From positions 1-46,888 of the forward strand of contig CACODD010000006.1 of NCBI GenBank assembly GCA_902625895.1: a DNA stretch of 46,888 bases, in the 5' to 3' direction. The translations under genes and the position numbers were made by a program. Origin of the DNA: an uncultured Alphaproteobacteria bacterium. Its GTDB lineage: Bacteria > Pseudomonadota > Alphaproteobacteria > Methylaequorales > Methylaequoraceae. Shown piece after piece: positions 8,985 to 19,771 of the stretch (position 1 is the first letter of the stretch; the number at the start of each line of letters is the position of its first letter). The notes beneath the pieces are model-generated. The model ran no database searches and was not told where the DNA came from. It saw only the letters and a program-made list of their open reading frames with translations.

Positions 8985-10061
8985 TTAGATTTTTTTTGTA
9001 TTTTTTGTTATTCTTGTAATTATTGAGCTAATAACAAAACTAACAATTCTAAATAACTTCTTGTCTGTTTTATCTGAAATTTCGATTGCCCTTTCAGATA
9101 CTTGTTTTAAATGATTGAAGGAAAGATCTAATGCTCCTTTTTTTTCTATCATTTTCAACCAAAATGTAATTTCATCTTCTGAAATTGAGTCATATCTTTT
9201 TTTTAAAAACCTTTGTAATATAAATTTTTCTCCTTGTGTTGCATTTTGTATAAAGTGCATTATGAGAATATTCATTTTACCTTCTTTCAGATCTCTTCCA
9301 GGAAGTCCTCTTTCTTTGAGGCCTAAAAAATCTGAAAGATCATCTTGAATTTGATACGCAACACCTGTTTCGTACAATGACTTAAAATATTTTGTGTCAT
9401 ATTTATTTCCTGATAGAATCAAAACAAGTTTTATGGGAAGAGAGATCAAACCGCCTGTTTTTGCCCTTGCTGTAGATTCATAATCTTCCATTTTCAAATT
9501 AAAATCAGACCTACTTAAAATTTCAATTGATTGCCCTTTTAATGTTTGTTTAATAGTTTTACTTAGTTCTTCTATTGCAAGACATTTGAGATCAGGTCGC
9601 GTTTTAATCTTGGATATAATTTCGAATGAGGCTGAAATAAAAAGATCTCCTAAATTAATGGCTGTGTGATCTCCAAATCTATTCCAAATTGTAGGTAAAC
9701 CTCTTCGCAAAAGATCTCTGTCTTGGAGATCGTCATGTATAAGAGATGCATTATGTATAAATTCACAACAAATTGCTATATCATGCGAAACTTGCTTGCT
9801 TAGGCCAAAGATTTTTGAAGCAAGAAGTGCCAGTATTGCTCTGAACCTCTTTCCACCTGAATTAAGCTGATACTTTGCACAATTTCCCATCCATGAATCA
9901 TCACAGAGGATGTCAGACATTTTTTTGTCAAGAGATTGTATATCATTTTTATATTTATCGTGGTTAAAGAAGCTTAAATCAATGTTTTTTTGAAAATTAT
10001 TGAGATGAATCCAATTCGAATTGATGTTTAAATTCTGTGTAATATTTTTTGTCATCTTCAC
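8985..10061 (-). CDS. crtE: geranylgeranyl diphosphate synthase
   Basis: Chain-elongating prenyltransferase making the C20 precursor for CrtB. The first Asp-rich motif is LIHDDLQDRDLLRRG (D110-D114) with the GGKRFR substrate site before it; the second is YQIQDDLSDF, followed by GRDLKEGK. The window holds a second, different prenyl synthase (ispA at 20359), which supports this one being dedicated to carotenoids. At 358 aa it has an N-terminal extension. The annotated start is GTG; an ATG two codons later is equally good and no clear ribosome site separates them. It is the first gene of the crt operon, 24 bases downstream of the base of the hairpin after proteorhodopsin. Confidence 0.92.
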   Translation of the reverse strand: MKMTKNITQNLNINSNWIHLNNFQKNIDLSFFNHDKYKNDIQSLDKKMSDILCDDSWMGNCAKYQLNSGGKRFRAILALLASKIFGLSKQVSHDIAICCEFIHNASLIHDDLQDRDLLRRGLPTIWNRFGDHTAINLGDLFISASFEIISKIKTRPDLKCLAIEELSKTIKQTLKGQSIEILSRSDFNLKMEDYESTARAKTGGLISLPIKLVLILSGNKYDTKYFKSLYETGVAYQIQDDLSDFLGLKERGLPGRDLKEGKMNILIMHFIQNATQGEKFILQRFLKKRYDSISEDEITFWLKMIEKKGALDLSFNHLKQVSERAIEISDKTDKKLFRIVSFVISSIITRITKNTKKI

Positions 10062-12490: not shown

Positions 12491-13522
12491 TTAAAACCCT
12501 AATTCTCTTAATTTTTTCAAATAATTTTCTTCGCTAATTAAACCGCGTTCTCTCATGCTTTCAAGAGATTTAAGGGTAAGTTGAGTATTTGTAGTTCTGT
12601 TCCTTGGCTGAATAACAGGGTTTTGTTGGTAGTACCTTTGGTTATTTGTTGCAGGTTGAGAATAAATGGAGTTGTTTTGATAAGGTCTTTGATTGTTAAT
12701 ATCATATGGTCTTTGAATATAAGGAGAATTATACTGTGGGGTTTGAGGTGGATAATATCCTCCTTGCTGTTGAAATGACCCCCTAACAGTTCGCAATTCT
12801 CTTCTTAAATCTTGAACTTCCCTTTTAAGTTGTTCAACACCAATATTAGACCTAAGGGCTATTGTTTGTTCTTGCCTACTCAATGATGCTCTTGGTCGAA
12901 GTGCTTTTGATGAGAAAACTAACCAATCTTTTCTACTTTTTGCGATGGTTGGTCGAAAAACACCAGAGTTTGGGAGTGCGCTTAATCTATATTTATTGTT
13001 TATTGTTTGAAATCTTGAGCCAGGAGCGTACGGATTTTTAATCAAATCTGGATTAAGTGCATTACTTAGCATCGGATCTGTTTCAGAAATATTTCCTTTT
13101 CTTAATATCGATCCAAAAATAAGATTAAGACCAGATTTATTATAAAATACTCTTCCAGATGTTACTTTATTGGCTGAAAGCCCTTTTTGTTTGTACCAAC
13201 CTTCTAAAGTGAAGACAACATCCTCATTAGGTTCTGCTTCCAGTAAAGCTTCGCTTATAGCTTTAGAATATGTAAATACCCTATCATCAGGGAAAAGTGC
13301 TTGTGGTTTGCCGCCAAATGTGGTCAGTACAAGTTTTAGTGCACCTTCAATGCTATTCGGATCTATTTTTACAGGATGAATATTTTTTATTTGCTTATCT
13401 TCTGAATCAAGTTGAACTCTTTGATAACCACTTTTGTAATAAAACTTGTTATCATCAAATATATTTATACTCGAACAACTAACTAAGAAGAATAAAACAA
13501 TAAGATATAGTATTTTTTTCAT
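12491..13522 (-). CDS. lipoprotein with C-terminal SHOCT domain
   Basis: A 343-residue protein. A lipoprotein signal (ILYLIVLFFLVSC, lipobox at C16) is followed by a folded region of about 200 residues, a short coiled coil (VEQLKREVQDLRRELRTVRG, about 225-245), then a Q/N/P/Y-rich low-complexity linker (about 248-305). The end, LESMRERGLISEENYLKKLRELGF, is a SHOCT-type short helical module, found in bacterial proteins as an oligomerisation or interaction element. The role is unknown; an envelope location is expected. It lies just past the porin terminator, so it probably has its own promoter. Confidence 0.75.
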   Translation of the reverse strand: MKKILYLIVLFFLVSCSSINIFDDNKFYYKSGYQRVQLDSEDKQIKNIHPVKIDPNSIEGALKLVLTTFGGKPQALFPDDRVFTYSKAISEALLEAEPNEDVVFTLEGWYKQKGLSANKVTSGRVFYNKSGLNLIFGSILRKGNISETDPMLSNALNPDLIKNPYAPGSRFQTINNKYRLSALPNSGVFRPTIAKSRKDWLVFSSKALRPRASLSRQEQTIALRSNIGVEQLKREVQDLRRELRTVRGSFQQQGGYYPPQTPQYNSPYIQRPYDINNQRPYQNNSIYSQPATNNQRYYQQNPVIQPRNRTTNTQLTLKSLESMRERGLISEENYLKKLRELGF

Positions 13523-13565: not shown

Positions 13566-13599
13566 AAAAAAAAAAGGAGAGCAAATTGCTCTCCTTTTT
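13566..13599 (-). terminator. porin transcription terminator (bidirectional shape)
   Basis: An eight-bp stem, GGAGAGCA (13576-13583) with TGCTCTCC (13587-13594), and a three-base loop, with ten A on one side and five T on the other. Read on the minus strand it has a ten-T tract and lies 27 bases past the porin stop. Confidence 0.88.
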
Positions 13600-13625: not shown

Positions 13626-14954
13626 CTACCAGAAGAAGAAAGCACCAATACCACCGAATGTATCTTCTTGATCATCGTCGGCAAGATACCAAGATTTCTC
13701 TGCGTATCCACCTTCAGCGACCAATCTGAAATTATCAGTAACGTTATGCCAAATCATACCTGAATGCATAGTGTTGGCATTTGTAGTACCTAGGTTGTTC
13801 ATATCACTTCCTGTCATTCTCATATAGTTACCACCATAAGAATAACCTACATTAGTACCTTGACCGAAATCAAATGTACCTTGGATATATCCACCATAAG
13901 ATTTTCTTTCTTTACCATCATCATCTAATGCACCAGTAGATCCGGCTACAGTTCCGTTATTAGCGTCCTGCGCTTGACTTCTTGGTAATACAGAGTGTTG
14001 ACCTCTCATACCGAGACCAGAAGCATAGAATCCTGAAGCAACAAGTGAAAAGCCCTCATAAGTAAGTTTTGTACCAAAACCTACACCGGCTGAGTCAACA
14101 GAATCGTGTTCAATATCGACACCAGCTGAAGCTTGTCTAGATTGCGTTTCAGCCGCAGTTCTTCCTGTGTGTTGGTATGTGCCATCAACCCAAAGATTAA
14201 CGCCAACACCAGTTTGTAGGAAATCACCATTCCAAGTGATTTGCGCTTCTACTCTTGGAGCTGAGTGATCTGTTGCACTATTCGCAGGAGTTTCGGAAGC
14301 AACGTCTTTTGGATCAAGAAGAGCAACCTTTGCCGCAAAACCGTTTCCAAGCTCTGGAAGCGTCCACGACACCATCGGTTGAAAATCTGTGTAGAGGTAA
14401 CCTACACCAATTCTACCTAAAGTAGTATTGTTGTTACCTGCACTAGCTCCGGCACCTACACCAAATAATAGCATATCATTTAAGATTGCATTACTTTGGT
14501 GAATACCAAGACTACGACCAACTAAAACAGAACCAAAGGAACCAGCTATGGTACCACTAGTTTCACGAATGTTAATTTCACCGTTACCTAGAGCGTTTTC
14601 ACCACCGTTCATGTGAGTATATAAGCCAAGTCTTGCTGACATGTCTAAACCATTAGCTGTAGGAGCTTTAAGAGTCATACCCCAAACATTTGGTAAAAGA
14701 CCTGTAACAATACTTGTCTCTGTATTAGCAGCGTTTATAATGCCACCAGTACCATCGAAAGCTACCACAGCACCACCAGAGGTAGTAGGGGCATTCGTAC
14801 CACTATTTTGCATTATAAATGCGTTAGCTGCGCCATCAAAAGAGACTTCCCAACCTTCTTGACTCATCAATAAAATTTTTGAATCAACATTGGTGGAAGC
14901 CAAAGCCATGACGGCAGGAATTGCAGCTACTGCAATTTTTTTTGAAATTTTCAT
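13626..14954 (-). CDS. outer-membrane porin
   Basis: A 442-residue protein with a signal peptide (KISKKIAVAAIPAVMALAS) and a mature part rich in Gly, Ala, Asn and Thr, with repeated amphipathic strands (for example NIRETSGTIAGSFGSVLVGR and TNVGYSYGGNYMRM) and a terminal aromatic (GGIGAFFFW), the outer-membrane insertion signal. It resembles the Gram-negative porin families of marine Alphaproteobacteria, and diffuses small solutes. Base composition is noticeably richer in G and C than neighbours, and the ribosome site GGAAGGA is strong, both fitting high expression. It has its own terminator. Confidence 0.85.
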   Translation of the reverse strand: MKISKKIAVAAIPAVMALASTNVDSKILLMSQEGWEVSFDGAANAFIMQNSGTNAPTTSGGAVVAFDGTGGIINAANTETSIVTGLLPNVWGMTLKAPTANGLDMSARLGLYTHMNGGENALGNGEINIRETSGTIAGSFGSVLVGRSLGIHQSNAILNDMLLFGVGAGASAGNNNTTLGRIGVGYLYTDFQPMVSWTLPELGNGFAAKVALLDPKDVASETPANSATDHSAPRVEAQITWNGDFLQTGVGVNLWVDGTYQHTGRTAAETQSRQASAGVDIEHDSVDSAGVGFGTKLTYEGFSLVASGFYASGLGMRGQHSVLPRSQAQDANNGTVAGSTGALDDDGKERKSYGGYIQGTFDFGQGTNVGYSYGGNYMRMTGSDMNNLGTTNANTMHSGMIWHNVTDNFRLVAEGGYAEKSWYLADDDQEDTFGGIGAFFFW

Positions 14955-15079: not shown

Positions 15080-15850
15080 TTATTTAAGAATAAAATTAAC
15101 AGGTATTTTGATTTTTAAATATCCTAGATTGTCGAGTACCTCAGCAGGAGGTTTCGGAAATTTAAATGATTTTAGGATTTTTGTTGTAGCCTTATAAAGT
15201 CTTTTCGGAGCTTTATCTTTTATCTCAATATTCATTAATTTCCCTTCTTTGTTAATTGTTAAGACTGAAACTATTGTTCCTTGTTCTCTTCTTTGTATTG
15301 ATTGAATTGGATAGGATTTAGACGCCATTTTATTAATTTCATGCGATATAAAACTTAAATATTCACTCAACAACTGGTTTTTAATTACTGATTTATTTTT
15401 ATTAAGAGAAAATTGCTTTTGGGATTGTATTTGTGGTTTGATTTCTGTAATTTCATTTGAATTAATAGATTTTTTTACTTCCTCTTTCTGAATATTTTTT
15501 TTATTTGGTTCAATGACTTTCTCAACTTTGTTAACTTTTTCTACTCTTTCTTTGGTTTCTTTTTTTTTTAAAGACACAACATCTTTTTTTTTCTCAATCT
15601 CTTTTTTCTTATTGTCTAAAATCTTGTTTTGTTTAATAGGTTTGTCTTCAATTTTTTTTATAGTTTTTTCTTTTACTACTTCTTTTGGTTTAGGTGGTGT
15701 TGGTTGAACAAATGAAAACTCTCTAAATTCGCTTAGGTTTACAACATAAATTTCTTTATCATTAGTTTTTGATGTGAAAAAAAAAATGATTGTAAAATGG
15801 AATAGTAAAGAAAAGGCAATCGATAAATATATAAACTTAGTATTTATCAT
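15080..15850 (-). CDS. tonB: energy transducer TonB
   Basis: Spans the periplasm and passes proton-motive energy from ExbB-ExbD to outer-membrane receptors. One N-terminal membrane helix carries the SxxxH motif required by TonB (S14 and H18, SLLFH). A long linker (residues 45-150) rich in Lys, Glu and Pro follows, including QPTPPKPKE. The C-terminal domain has the TonB pattern GTIVSVLTINKEGKLMNIEI and ends in IKIPVNFIL. 256 aa is a usual length. It is last in the ABC-exbB-exbD-exbD-tonB operon, overlapping the preceding exbD by 14 bases. No TonB-dependent receptor is in the window. Confidence 0.9.
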   Translation of the reverse strand: MINTKFIYLSIAFSLLFHFTIIFFFTSKTNDKEIYVVNLSEFREFSFVQPTPPKPKEVVKEKTIKKIEDKPIKQNKILDNKKKEIEKKKDVVSLKKKETKERVEKVNKVEKVIEPNKKNIQKEEVKKSINSNEITEIKPQIQSQKQFSLNKNKSVIKNQLLSEYLSFISHEINKMASKSYPIQSIQRREQGTIVSVLTINKEGKLMNIEIKDKAPKRLYKATTKILKSFKFPKPPAEVLDNLGYLKIKIPVNFILK

Positions 15851-16250
15851 TTTCTTTTTCTATTACCTTTACAAAAACTTTTTTTATGTCCTTTTCTTTG
15901 AATTCTTTCATTACTCTATTAAAGAAATGAATAGATGATTCTTTGTCTAAATCTAAAATATACTTTTTATTTTTTGATTGAATAAAATTTGATAATTCTT
16001 CAATTTTCAAACTTTTATTTTCATACAAAATTTCATTGTTTTTATTGATCGTAAATACAACACTTTGACTATCAATATCTACTTCATTTCCAAACTCAGA
16101 TTCTGGCCTACTAATATCATTAGAATCTTTTTTGCTAATCACGCCCGTTAACATAAAGAAAATTAATAATAAAAATATCAAATTTATCATTGGTGTAAGA
16201 TTTACCATTTCTAAGGTTTTATTAGGTCTTTGGGATTTTTTAAGGTTCAT
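15837..16250 (-). CDS. ExbD/TolR-type protein lacking the membrane aspartate
   Basis: A 137-residue protein of ExbD form: short cytoplasmic N-terminus, one helix (about 18-38, LTPMINLIFLLLIFFML) and a periplasmic domain. The helix normally carries an essential Asp in the pattern P-x-[VIL]-D; here the residue is Asn (N23, codon AAT). The partner exbD just upstream keeps its Asp. So this may be a non-protonating partner in a mixed ExbD pair. It overlaps the preceding exbD by 11 bases and tonB by 14. Confidence 0.85.
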   Translation of the reverse strand: MNLKKSQRPNKTLEMVNLTPMINLIFLLLIFFMLTGVISKKDSNDISRPESEFGNEVDIDSQSVVFTINKNNEILYENKSLKIEELSNFIQSKNKKYILDLDKESSIHFFNRVMKEFKEKDIKKVFVKVIEKENDKY

Positions 16251-16641
16251 CTGAGAAATTCACACTTTTAATTTTATTTTTTTTTATTAGATCCATGAGA
16301 TTTAATAAAACCTGAATCGATGATTTTTTATCATTCAAAATTACAATTTTGTCGAAATTTTGAGCATTCCAATCTTCAAAATATTTATTTTCTAAATCTT
16401 TTAATTTAATGATTTTGTCTTCAAAAAAAATTTTATCTTTTTTGAGATATAAAATCATAAGTTGATCTTTATTTTGCTGGTTTGAAATTTGTTTTTGATT
16501 ATTTACTGAGAAACTAACTTCATTATTTCTTGTAAAGTTTGTAGCTAACATAAAAAAAACTAGCATTAAAAAAATGATATCAATAAGAGGAATAATATTA
16601 ATCTTTAACTTTTTTTTTTTCAAAATTTTATTCAAAGTCAT
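16240..16641 (-). CDS. exbD: ExbD/TolR-type protein with conserved aspartate
   Basis: A 133-residue protein with a single helix NIIPLIDIIFLMLVFFMLAT carrying the conserved Asp (D21), the proton-relay residue of the ExbB-ExbD motor, and a periplasmic domain rich in Lys and Asn. It starts within the last codons of exbB (four-base overlap) and ends within the next exbD. With ExbB it should form the inner-membrane motor energising TonB. Confidence 0.9.
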   Translation of the reverse strand: MTLNKILKKKKLKINIIPLIDIIFLMLVFFMLATNFTRNNEVSFSVNNQKQISNQQNKDQLMILYLKKDKIFFEDKIIKLKDLENKYFEDWNAQNFDKIVILNDKKSSIQVLLNLMDLIKKNKIKSVNFSDEP

Positions 16642-17252
16642 TTGAGTGTTGATAATTTAGAAATTAAAGTTTCAAAGTCATCTATAAGATCGTTGATTTT
16701 TTTTTCTAAGAAATAGTGACTTACTAGAGCTGGTATAGCTACTATTAATCCCATCGCAGTAGTAAGTAAAGCTGTCCAAATGCCACCTGCAAGAATTGCA
16801 GGATCAACCAAACTACCCCCTAGTTCAAGCTCATTAAATGAATCAATCATTCCTATAACAGTTCCGAGGAGTCCTACTAACGGACTAACTTGCGAAATAA
16901 CTTCTAATGAGGGAAGGAAAGAATAAATTTGTTTAAATTCTTTATTTTTTAATGAGTCAATTTCCTTTTCAATATCAATTTTTGAATTATTAGAAGAAAT
17001 AATATCAACTATACTCAGAATAATTCTTTGTTTTGATTTTGGAAGGGTGTCAATAAAACCTTCCCTAACGTCGTTAATATTATTATTTTTGTCAGCAATA
17101 AGTAAACTGTAGAATTTAGAAAAATCAAGTTTTCTCAAAAAGTATATTTCAGTAATTTTCAGGGTGACAATTGCAATAGTAATTATCGATAAAGCAAATA
17201 GTGATGTGAATATAACTCCACCTTTGTCTAAATATAATAAAAATGATTCCAT
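16638..17252 (-). CDS. exbB: ExbB/TolQ/MotA-type proton-channel protein
   Basis: A 204-residue protein with three membrane segments: about 12-32 and the conserved pair around SPLVGLLGTVIGMIDSFNEL and WTALLTTAMGLIVAIPALVS, the MotA/TolQ/ExbB domain signature. It forms the pentameric channel holding ExbD and drives TonB. ExbB rather than TolQ is inferred from the linked tonB and the lack of tolA/tolB. It follows the ABC ATPase gene with a 14-base gap. Confidence 0.9.
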   Translation of the reverse strand: MESFLLYLDKGGVIFTSLFALSIITIAIVTLKITEIYFLRKLDFSKFYSLLIADKNNNINDVREGFIDTLPKSKQRIILSIVDIISSNNSKIDIEKEIDSLKNKEFKQIYSFLPSLEVISQVSPLVGLLGTVIGMIDSFNELELGGSLVDPAILAGGIWTALLTTAMGLIVAIPALVSHYFLEKKINDLIDDFETLISKLSTLK

Positions 17253-17266
17253 TTAGTTTTCCTAAA

Positions 17267-18052
17267 TTAAACTAAACCTTTCAATAGAGAAGGAAATTTT
17301 TTTTGCAACTGATCATATTCATTTTGAATTTCAGTGTTGTCAATTGAGAGTCCTTCTATTTTTGCTTTAATCTTATGATCGTAAACAACTGAAGCTGGTC
17401 TTTTGGAAAAAAAAATTATTCTGTCTCCAAGAAGAATAGCTTCTTTAAGATTATGCGTAATAAGTATGATTGTTATTGGATTTTTTTCATAGTAATTTAT
17501 TAATACGGAATAAAGGCTTTCTGCTGTGGGTTGGTCTAATGATACAAAAGGCTCATCCATTAATAAAATTTGTGGTTTTTTAATCAATGCTCTGGCTAAA
17601 GAGACTTTTCGTCTCATACCACCAGATATGGATTTTGGATAATAATTCTTAAATTCGTGTAAATCAAATTCGGAAAGAAGAAATTCTATTCTTTCAATAT
17701 ATTCGTCGTTATCTTCGCAAACTAATTCAATATTTTCTTTAACTGTTAACCACGGAAGGAGTCTAGATGTTTGAAAAACATAACCAAAATCTCCATTAAA
17801 CTTTAAATCACGTTTTTCTTTATTGAATTTCTGGTCCTCGACATCTATTAGACCACCTATTATATTCATCAAAGTAGTTTTACCACACCCAGATGGACCT
17901 ACAATGCAAACAAATTCTTTAGACTTGATTTGAATATTTATGTTTTTAAGAACATCGATGGATGTTTTATCGTGTGGATTCGTAAACGATTTTTTTTTAA
18001 TGTTAATGTGAAAATCCAATTTTTTACCTCCAAATGGATATTTTTTTTTCAA
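17267..18052 (-). CDS. ABC importer ATP-binding protein, NitT/TauT/SsuB type
   Basis: A 261-residue nucleotide-binding subunit: Walker A GPSGCGKTT (about 54-62), Q-loop VFQTSRLLPWLTV, signature SISGGMRRKVSLARAL, Walker B ILLMDEPF with catalytic Glu, and H-loop ILITHN. The FQxxxLLPWxTV wording is typical of nitrate/sulfonate/taurine-type importers. Its annotated start lies 29 bases inside the permease gene. The start could be somewhat later, since the first 15 or so residues precede the usual fold. It pairs with the permease and binding protein upstream. Confidence 0.93.
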   Translation of the reverse strand: MKKKYPFGGKKLDFHINIKKKSFTNPHDKTSIDVLKNINIQIKSKEFVCIVGPSGCGKTTLMNIIGGLIDVEDQKFNKEKRDLKFNGDFGYVFQTSRLLPWLTVKENIELVCEDNDEYIERIEFLLSEFDLHEFKNYYPKSISGGMRRKVSLARALIKKPQILLMDEPFVSLDQPTAESLYSVLINYYEKNPITIILITHNLKEAILLGDRIIFFSKRPASVVYDHKIKAKIEGLSIDNTEIQNEYDQLQKKFPSLLKGLV

Positions 18053-18773
18053 ATGGCCTTACTAAAATAAATTCTACGAAAATTATTAGAAGAACAAATA
18101 CTAATGTATATGCCAAAATACCTGAAATATCAAAAAATTGAAAGAATCCAAATAATTTAAATCCTACACCATTACTTCTACCCAAGAGTTCTACCACAAG
18201 AACAATTTTCCAGATCAATGATAGACCTGATCTTGCAGATGACAACAAATATGGGTAAAGTTGAGGAAGTATTACTTTTAAAAAGAATTTATTTCCTGAA
18301 ATTTTGTAAAATTTCGCTACATCCACATAATCTTTTTCAATTGATCTTGCTCCTTCTCGCATTATAACAGCAACCATCGGTATTTTATTTAAAGAAACTG
18401 CAACAATTGCTGCGACTTCATTTAAACCAAACCACACATAGCATAAAATTATAATTACTAGCGCCGGTACATTTAATCCCATAATGAGCCAGTCATCTAA
18501 AAAATTATTTAATGATGCATTTCTTCCCATATAAATTCCAAAAAAAGTTCCAATAAACATAGCTATAATAAATGATAAAAATACCCTTTTTAGAGTTATC
18601 GCTGTATGATAAAAAATTTCGTTGTCTTCTGCTTCTAAAATTATCTTATCGAAAACTTCGCTAGGTCCAGGTAAAAGGTCAACCTCGACGTAAAGACTGG
18701 AAATCTGCCATACACTGAAGAAAATTAGAATAGAAGCAATTCTAATAACTGCATTAGAGTTGTTTTTTTCCAT
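18024..18773 (-). CDS. ABC importer permease, NitT/TauT/SsuC type
   Basis: A 249-residue membrane protein with about six helices. The BPD-type coupling loop EGARSIEKDYVDVAKFYKIS followed by VILPQLYPYLLSSAR matches the EAA motif of this permease class, and SLIWKIVLVVELLGRSNGVGF is the usual C-terminal signature. It lies two bases after the binding-protein stop and overlaps the ATPase gene. Confidence 0.93.
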   Translation of the reverse strand: MEKNNSNAVIRIASILIFFSVWQISSLYVEVDLLPGPSEVFDKIILEAEDNEIFYHTAITLKRVFLSFIIAMFIGTFFGIYMGRNASLNNFLDDWLIMGLNVPALVIIILCYVWFGLNEVAAIVAVSLNKIPMVAVIMREGARSIEKDYVDVAKFYKISGNKFFLKVILPQLYPYLLSSARSGLSLIWKIVLVVELLGRSNGVGFKLFGFFQFFDISGILAYTLVFVLLIIFVEFILVRPFEKKISIWR

Positions 18774-18775
18774 TA

Positions 18776-19771
18776 TTACTCTACCCAGAATGTTCCAGGA
18801 GAAAGTTCTTTTGCTTTGCCAACAAGTTCTCTTCCTCCAACTTCTGAAAGTATAGAGTAAAGTTTTTTTGAACCATTAATTTGGTCCAACGAAAAATCTT
18901 TTGAAGGAATACCTTCTCTGTATATATCTCTTAGATTTTTAAAGAGTTGATCATTTTCTGCATTCATAAATGGTCTTACTTTTTCCCATATCTCATCCGA
19001 TTCAAGCATCAATTTTTTTGCTTCTTTTGATGTTTTAAAGAAATTTTTTAGTAATTCTTTATTCTGCTCTGCCCATTGCTCTTTGAAAACCCACCCGATA
19101 ACTGGAATACCTTTAGGAAGATTTAACTTTTTCAAGATGTCAGTAATATTTATAACTTTAGTGAATTTTTTATTTGTTAAAAGCTTTGCTTGGTAAGGCC
19201 AATAGGTAAGAATTGCGTCAAAACTATCTTGTTCAATCTTTTTATTTAATAAAGGTGGAGCACCAAAAATTTGCCTACTCACATCTTTAAGTTCTTTTCC
19301 GTATTCTTTTTTGAAATATGCTCTAAATATCAGCCAACCTTTGTCAACTTGACCACCGGCAATACCTATTTTTTTACCTTCCAAATCTCCTTCATTTTTT
19401 ATTTTTGAATCTTTCGATACTATGAGACCCCCAGCTGACATCGAATGTGGAACGAATGCAAATTCTCTACCTTCATTTCTTTGTCTTGATACCCAAAACC
19501 AATCAGTTACTATGAGGTCGACTGCTCCACCTTGAAGCGCAACAGCAGCCGCATTCTTACTTGCTAATTCAACTATCTCAACATCTAGATCGTTATTATT
19601 GTCCATATTAAGTTCTTTTATTAATTTTAGCTCCCAATTGACGCTGCCATATTGTAGAGATCCAATTCTTAAAGTATTTGCATGTAGATAGGAGAAACAA
19701 ATGTTTAAAATCAAAGTTAGAAACAAAACTTTGGTTATAAAAAGTGATTTGTTTAAAATATTTTTAATCAT
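18776..19771 (-). CDS. ABC importer substrate-binding protein, NitT/TauT/SsuA type
   Basis: A 331-residue periplasmic protein with signal peptide (VLFLTLILNICFSYLHA). The mature start LRIGSLQYGSVNWEL and the VALQGGAVDLIVTDWFWVSRQR stretch place it in the NMT1/SsuA-like fold, in a sub-family with DWxWVSRQR that I do not recall being assigned a substrate. ADLEGKKIGIAGG-like and GAPPLLNKKIEQ motifs follow. It is the first gene of the seven-gene operon. AGGA sits just ahead of ATG, with a second purine-rich stretch further up. The ligand is unknown; linked TonB genes hint at something needing an outer-membrane receptor. Confidence 0.88.
   Translation of the reverse strand: MIKNILNKSLFITKVLFLTLILNICFSYLHANTLRIGSLQYGSVNWELKLIKELNMDNNNDLDVEIVELASKNAAAVALQGGAVDLIVTDWFWVSRQRNEGREFAFVPHSMSAGGLIVSKDSKIKNEGDLEGKKIGIAGGQVDKGWLIFRAYFKKEYGKELKDVSRQIFGAPPLLNKKIEQDSFDAILTYWPYQAKLLTNKKFTKVINITDILKKLNLPKGIPVIGWVFKEQWAEQNKELLKNFFKTSKEAKKLMLESDEIWEKVRPFMNAENDQLFKNLRDIYREGIPSKDFSLDQINGSKKLYSILSEVGGRELVGKAKELSPGTFWVE

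Follow-up and report, generated by a model that had tools for sequence, protein, structure and literature searches.

A predicted PqqT-type PQQ importer encoded in a putative operon with Ton motor genes in a marine alphaproteobacterial family

PqqT of Methylobacterium extorquens AM1 (structures 9b1u, 9b1v and 9ooz) is the periplasmic PQQ-binding component of an ABC importer and comes from a methylotroph of the XoxF type; its Kd for PQQ is 50 nM (PMC12124388) and one of its structures, 9b1v, contains PQQ and Gd (PMC12828617). TonB-dependent uptake of the same cofactor is proven for PqqU (YncD) of E. coli, a receptor almost absent from Alphaproteobacteria (n = 1) in a published survey (PMC12124388). 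The binding protein considered here is like PqqT in sequence, fold and pocket lysine, but differs from it in that the two share about 34% identity and that it is encoded with exbB-exbD-exbD-tonB; PqqU, for its part, has no orthologue in the family to which the window belongs.

As to the Ton genes, those of Vibrio cholerae (tonB1-exbB1-exbD1) lie next to hutB (VCA0910-0913) in what we take to be an operon. The likeness to the present case is that Ton motor genes adjoin the gene of an ABC-importer binding protein (PMC7600106), and by analogy this heme uptake locus is a precedent for Ton genes beside an ABC importer; however, the heme importer is of another class, there is one exbD and the ligand is different. 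The tonB1-exbB1-exbD1-exbD2 operon of Sphingobium SYK-6 comprises one exbB, tandem exbD genes and a tonB serving many receptors (PMC8599685), but both of its ExbD proteins keep Asp-25, whereas the second one has Asn in our case, and no ABC genes are reported in it.

The seven-gene block and its neighbours

The locus lies in a contig stretch of 46 888 nucleotides (the window) from an uncultured alphaproteobacterium. A previous sequence-only reading had described seven leftward genes there, and this description stood: all seven ORFs were confirmed, the products exceeded their Pfam cut-offs (NMT1 for the binding protein, TonB_C for TonB, and likewise the permease, the ATPase, ExbB and both ExbD proteins), and the gene order is conserved. 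The features, including three located downstream of the block, are the following.

18776..19771, reverse strand: periplasmic binding protein, PqqT clade and DWFWVSRQR sub-family, with PQQ as predicted ligand; NMT1 (Pfam), phmmer, Foldseek and tree
18024..18773, reverse strand: ABC importer permease of the NitT/TauT type; BPD_transp_1, 9e-26
17267..18052, reverse strand: ABC importer ATPase, TTG start; ABC_tran, 4e-30
16638..17252, reverse strand: ExbB; MotA_ExbB, 1e-26, and census of family genomes
16240..16641, reverse strand: first ExbD, motor aspartate present (PLID); ExbD, 6.5e-21, alignment and census
15837..16250, reverse strand: second ExbD, Asn replacing the motor aspartate (PMIN); ExbD, 1.1e-15, and alignment
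15080..15850, reverse strand: TonB (TonB-B, the second TonB of the genome); TonB_C, 2e-9, above cut-off, and census
13626..14954, reverse strand: porin; Porin_4, 2.6e-20 in relatives, and synteny
13571..13599, reverse strand: terminator-like hairpin of 13 pairs, between the porin and lipoprotein genes
12491..13522, reverse strand: lipoprotein with a coiled coil and a C-terminus resembling SHOCT; kept as the porin's neighbour in relatives

The genes are tightly packed. The binding-protein and permease genes are 2 nt apart, the permease gene overlaps that of the ATPase by 29 nt given the TTG start of the latter, 14 nt separate the ATPase gene from exbB, and from exbB through the two exbD genes to tonB the successive overlaps are 4, 11 and 14 nt. 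We infer that the seven genes form one operon and are transcribed together. A scan for sigma-70 promoters gave matches no more frequent than in shuffled sequences, and an Rfam scan of the window returned no riboswitch or other RNA.

The order from the binding protein to tonB is kept in all 17 wide family loci as far as the contigs reach, the contig ending inside the block in two of them, and a divergent tusA precedes the block in these loci. Conservation of the block is far beyond chance: identity between the binding proteins of family loci goes down to 59-61%, and the seven genes are present in all five family genomes with a completeness of at least 90%. A match to the binding protein was found in 25 of the 32 family genomes (one match being partial), and the genomes without a match are fragmentary. 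On whether the block is conserved beyond close relatives, the answer is mixed: it is kept across the whole marine alphaproteobacterial family, but outside the family the importer trio (binding protein, permease and ATPase) comes without exbB in 69 loci out of 69. The nearest named records are single-cell genomes and MAGs of uncultured Alphaproteobacteria. Equating the family with HIMB59/AEGEAN-169 or with 'clade X' of PMC11996626 was considered and not retained; two papers on HIMB59/AEGEAN-169 name neither PQQ nor TonB.

Wherever a family locus extends far enough, tonB is followed by the porin gene and then by the lipoprotein gene, two genes (13626-14954 and 12491-13522) that had been missed earlier. 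We considered that the porin could be a TonB-dependent channel and rejected the idea: it has no match to the Plug domain and is an ordinary Porin_4 protein. A search of the PDB gave no match for the porin and no relative of note for the lipoprotein, whose structure model is of low confidence. In one locus (L100), a porin and a lipoprotein also come after the trio, where the Ton genes are absent; this lipoprotein (L100:14145-15164) adjoins the porin and has a SHOCT-like C-terminus as well.

The binding protein and its probable ligand

The sequence-only reading had set the binding protein in a sub-family of its own, marked by the motif DWFWVSRQR, and could attach no substrate to it. It is indeed not of the ordinary sulfonate or nitrate type, and among solved structures its closest relative in both sequence and fold is PqqT. 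Against NCBIfam it gave only a sub-threshold match to the SsuA family. Against the sequences of the PDB, phmmer placed PqqT first (9b1u, 1.2e-58), the next, unrelated match being at 1e-6. Its AlphaFold model (pLDDT 92.8), submitted to Foldseek, retrieved the three PqqT structures 9ooz, 9b1v and 9b1u, all with PQQ, at the top, with E-values around 1e-33 and TM-scores of 0.81-0.91, as compared with 6e-16 for the next fold. The protein is nearer to PqqT than to SsuA, TauA or Thi5 by either measure. In trees, PqqT is nested within the DWFWVSRQR clade, apart from SsuA-like proteins (UFBoot 93; FastTree 0.86-0.90), with weak basal nodes (56-60).

At the level of residues, K115 of the PqqT chain, which would be K142 assuming an offset of 27 residues for the signal peptide, aligns with K143 of our protein. 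We take K142 of PqqT to hydrogen-bond PQQ. K143 is invariant in 80 relatives out of 80, an invariance that is partly built in, because DK[GS]WL was one of the two seeds of the search, although PqqT itself was not seeded. In an artificial metalloprotein derived from PqqT, it is K142 that was mutated to Asp (PMC12828617). W45, E46, D84, D89, S109, D142, W145 and W190 are common to our protein and PqqT, and most SsuA-like controls lack them, with the exception of D84, found in 16 of 27 controls.

Genomic context outside the family points in the same direction. The 69 trio loci examined there, many of them shortened, come from the 80 best of 574 confirmed stretches, and three kinds of gene lying no more than 10 kb away were counted as PQQ context: those for pqq synthesis, for PQQ dehydrogenases and for ped-type exporter permeases. 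Such genes are near the trio in 49 of the 69 loci, against none of 20 control loci of SsuA-like proteins. In Zhongshania (L160), pqqB, C, D and E run without interruption into the genes of the binding protein, permease and ATPase. According to the record annotation, the trio of Phyllobacterium is followed by quinoprotein relay metallohydrolase 2, a SoxYZ-like gene and XoxF5, and in Phaeobacter the neighbourhood of the trio includes pedF and a PQQ dehydrogenase.

Several observations count against PQQ import: the low identity with PqqT given above, the lack of a PqqU orthologue in the family, the replacement of the clade-specific W90, W92 and R97 by L, F and G in PqqT, and the situation in the family itself, whose pqq and xoxF genes lie on other contigs or in other regions than the block, so that PQQ genes are beside it in none of the 11 family loci. 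The family carries pqqB, C, D and E, xoxF, a cytochrome, xoxJ and fae; 21 of its 32 genomes have PqqE above cut-off and 20 of the 32 have a PQQ alcohol dehydrogenase, neither being above cut-off in the window's own genome, which is 66% complete. One family locus (L174) contains xoxF, a methanol-type cytochrome, xoxJ, pqqE, D, C, B and fae; this compact locus of a streamlined marine alphaproteobacterium (L174:1-20000) also includes C1-carrier genes. PQQ is therefore probably synthesised in the family, and for a producer its import into the cytoplasm is not obviously needed; such import would serve to recapture or supplement it. On balance, we regard PQQ or a PQQ complex as highly likely to be the ligand. 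PQQ is thus very probably bound by the importer, which would give a cargo to a system left unassigned by the sequence-only reading; that it is the actual ligand, carried inward, is what we infer.

The Ton motor and the receptors

It had been proposed that the motor encoded in the block was dedicated to the importer. This did not hold. In family genomes, the only ExbD-family proteins are TolR and the two of the operon, and the ExbB-family proteins of a relative 93% complete (G011) are TolQ, MotA, two others that do not adjoin tonB, and the operon's ExbB. The operon thus appears to hold the only Ton motor (ExbB-ExbD-ExbD) of the cell, and since this motor must serve every TonB receptor, it is shared. 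As to whether one tonB serves many receptors, the count is two TonBs (TonB-B in the operon and another paired with a B12 receptor, T1), one ExbB/ExbD set and three or four receptors.

The two ExbD proteins differ at the motor motif. The transmembrane aspartate of the motor is present in the first (PLID) and replaced by Asn in the second (PMIN) in all 18 family loci aligned, the window included (window and L036-L052). The corresponding Asp-25 is reported to be essential in E. coli ExbD (PMC8599685). The same Asp/Asn tandem was found in four other alphaproteobacterial sets (G032, G038 and twice in G039; L238-L241), whereas three other tandem sets of Alphaproteobacteria are Asp/Asp. A literature search found no description of an Asp/Asn tandem, which is not proof of novelty.

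Another part of the early reading, the lack of a receptor gene in the window, held for the stretch of 12.5-23 kb; the one TonB receptor detected in the genome is on another contig. In that same genome (contig C10; L005:7434-9437 and 9560-9733), T1 and its own tonB are a pair for B12 uptake, accompanied by a strong cobalamin riboswitch. The riboswitch lies upstream of T1 not only here but also in three family loci, in L097 and in all eight outgroup loci tested; T1 is a B12 receptor. As a T1 relative comes after the trio in L097, T1 had been considered as a PQQ receptor, an idea rejected on account of this riboswitch. T2 is ZnuD-like (zinc) and adjoins a Zur-like gene. T3 is FecA-like and, in four loci, transcribed away from the gene of quinoprotein relay metallohydrolase 2 or of a homologue (L167:9812-13322, L172:5822-9297, L280:471-3924 and L170:5517-8970), with a TupA-like tungstate-binding protein nearby; in one locus, a GSDH-type sugar dehydrogenase is near. 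T3 was not accepted as a PQQ receptor, its context being suggestive only and its sequence FecA-like. None of the family receptors T1, T2 and T3 is a PqqU orthologue, local identity to PqqU being 28% at most. Some family genomes have a fourth TonB receptor, and this receptor, T3 and the adjacent Porin_4 porin are candidates for the entry of PQQ through the outer membrane.

In some other bacteria, TonB receptors, PqqU orthologues included, are found near the trio. Two loci (L127 and L131) have PqqU orthologues of 40-43% identity together with pqqB/C/E and the trio. In relatives of Niveispirillum and Azospirillum, a TonB receptor comes directly after the trio (L124:12393-14519, L146:12373-14505 and L162:12355-14487); it is a candidate non-PqqU receptor for PQQ. 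The proposal that the ligand arrives through a TonB receptor thus fits a scarce compound with proven TonB-dependent uptake, and it fits the receptors seen near the trio elsewhere, but within the family the block lacks a linked receptor gene, so that coupling of its importer to such a receptor is presumptive.

Proposed mechanism and its rivals

Taken as a whole, a PqqT-type ABC importer of PQQ, in one operon with the only ExbB-ExbD-ExbD set of the cell and one of its two TonBs, is the reading that we consider likely. The binding protein would capture periplasmic PQQ, which could have escaped from the XoxF alcohol dehydrogenase in the cell's own periplasm or have been gathered from seawater; permease and ATPase would then carry it back into the cytoplasm. 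The motor encoded alongside would power all TonB receptors of the cell, for B12, zinc and at least one FecA-like, while external PQQ would be admitted by one of these receptors or by the adjacent porin. A more specific version seems doubtful to us: in it, PQQ, alone or complexed with a lanthanide, enters marine alphaproteobacteria of the XoxF type via a non-PqqU TonB receptor (candidate: the FecA-like T3), and the uptake is driven by TonB-B together with an ExbD pair of mixed type, only one subunit of which has the proton-relaying aspartate.

It is quite conceivable that importer and Ton genes are operon neighbours devoid of functional coupling, PQQ or another solute entering via the adjacent porin and the Ton genes merely sharing the transcript and serving the B12, zinc and iron receptors. 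That the operon's ExbB and ExbD, being the only ones, must serve other receptors agrees with this, as do the trio, porin and lipoprotein found without Ton genes in L100 and the ability of PQQ, when concentrated, to diffuse across the outer membrane (PMC12124388). However, the exact gene order is conserved in every family locus, and TonB receptors, PqqU orthologues among them, are near the trio in other bacteria.

The same importer could have a PQQ-lanthanide complex or a lanthanide chelate as its physiological ligand and supply XoxF with both metal and cofactor. We find this unlikely: PqqT was crystallised with PQQ and Gd, the family dehydrogenase is XoxF-like and the Phyllobacterium trio is in a cluster annotated as XoxF5, but the Gd of the crystal may come from a soak, and the trio also accompanies pqq genes together with dehydrogenases that are not known to belong to lanthanide types. 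Equally improbable is a ligand other than PQQ, made or used beside PQQ enzymes (e.g. an alcohol-oxidation product): NitT/TauT proteins bind diverse small solutes and genomic context ties the trio both to dehydrogenases and to pqq synthesis, but the closest structure is PqqT with bound PQQ, nested inside the clade, and adjacency to pqqBCDE is not expected for a dehydrogenase substrate.

On the favoured reading, that of a PQQ importer, PQQ becomes a testable ligand for a widespread 'sulfonate-like' sub-family of binding proteins in Alpha-, Beta- and Gammaproteobacteria. The Asp/Asn pair makes the number of protonatable ExbD subunits needed by the Ton motor directly testable. The same reading points to machinery for PQQ uptake in Alphaproteobacteria, a class almost devoid of the known receptor PqqU. 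In the ocean, lanthanide XoxF enzymes reach high expression (PMC11996626), which lends importance to the way in which cells keep or share the cofactor of these enzymes.
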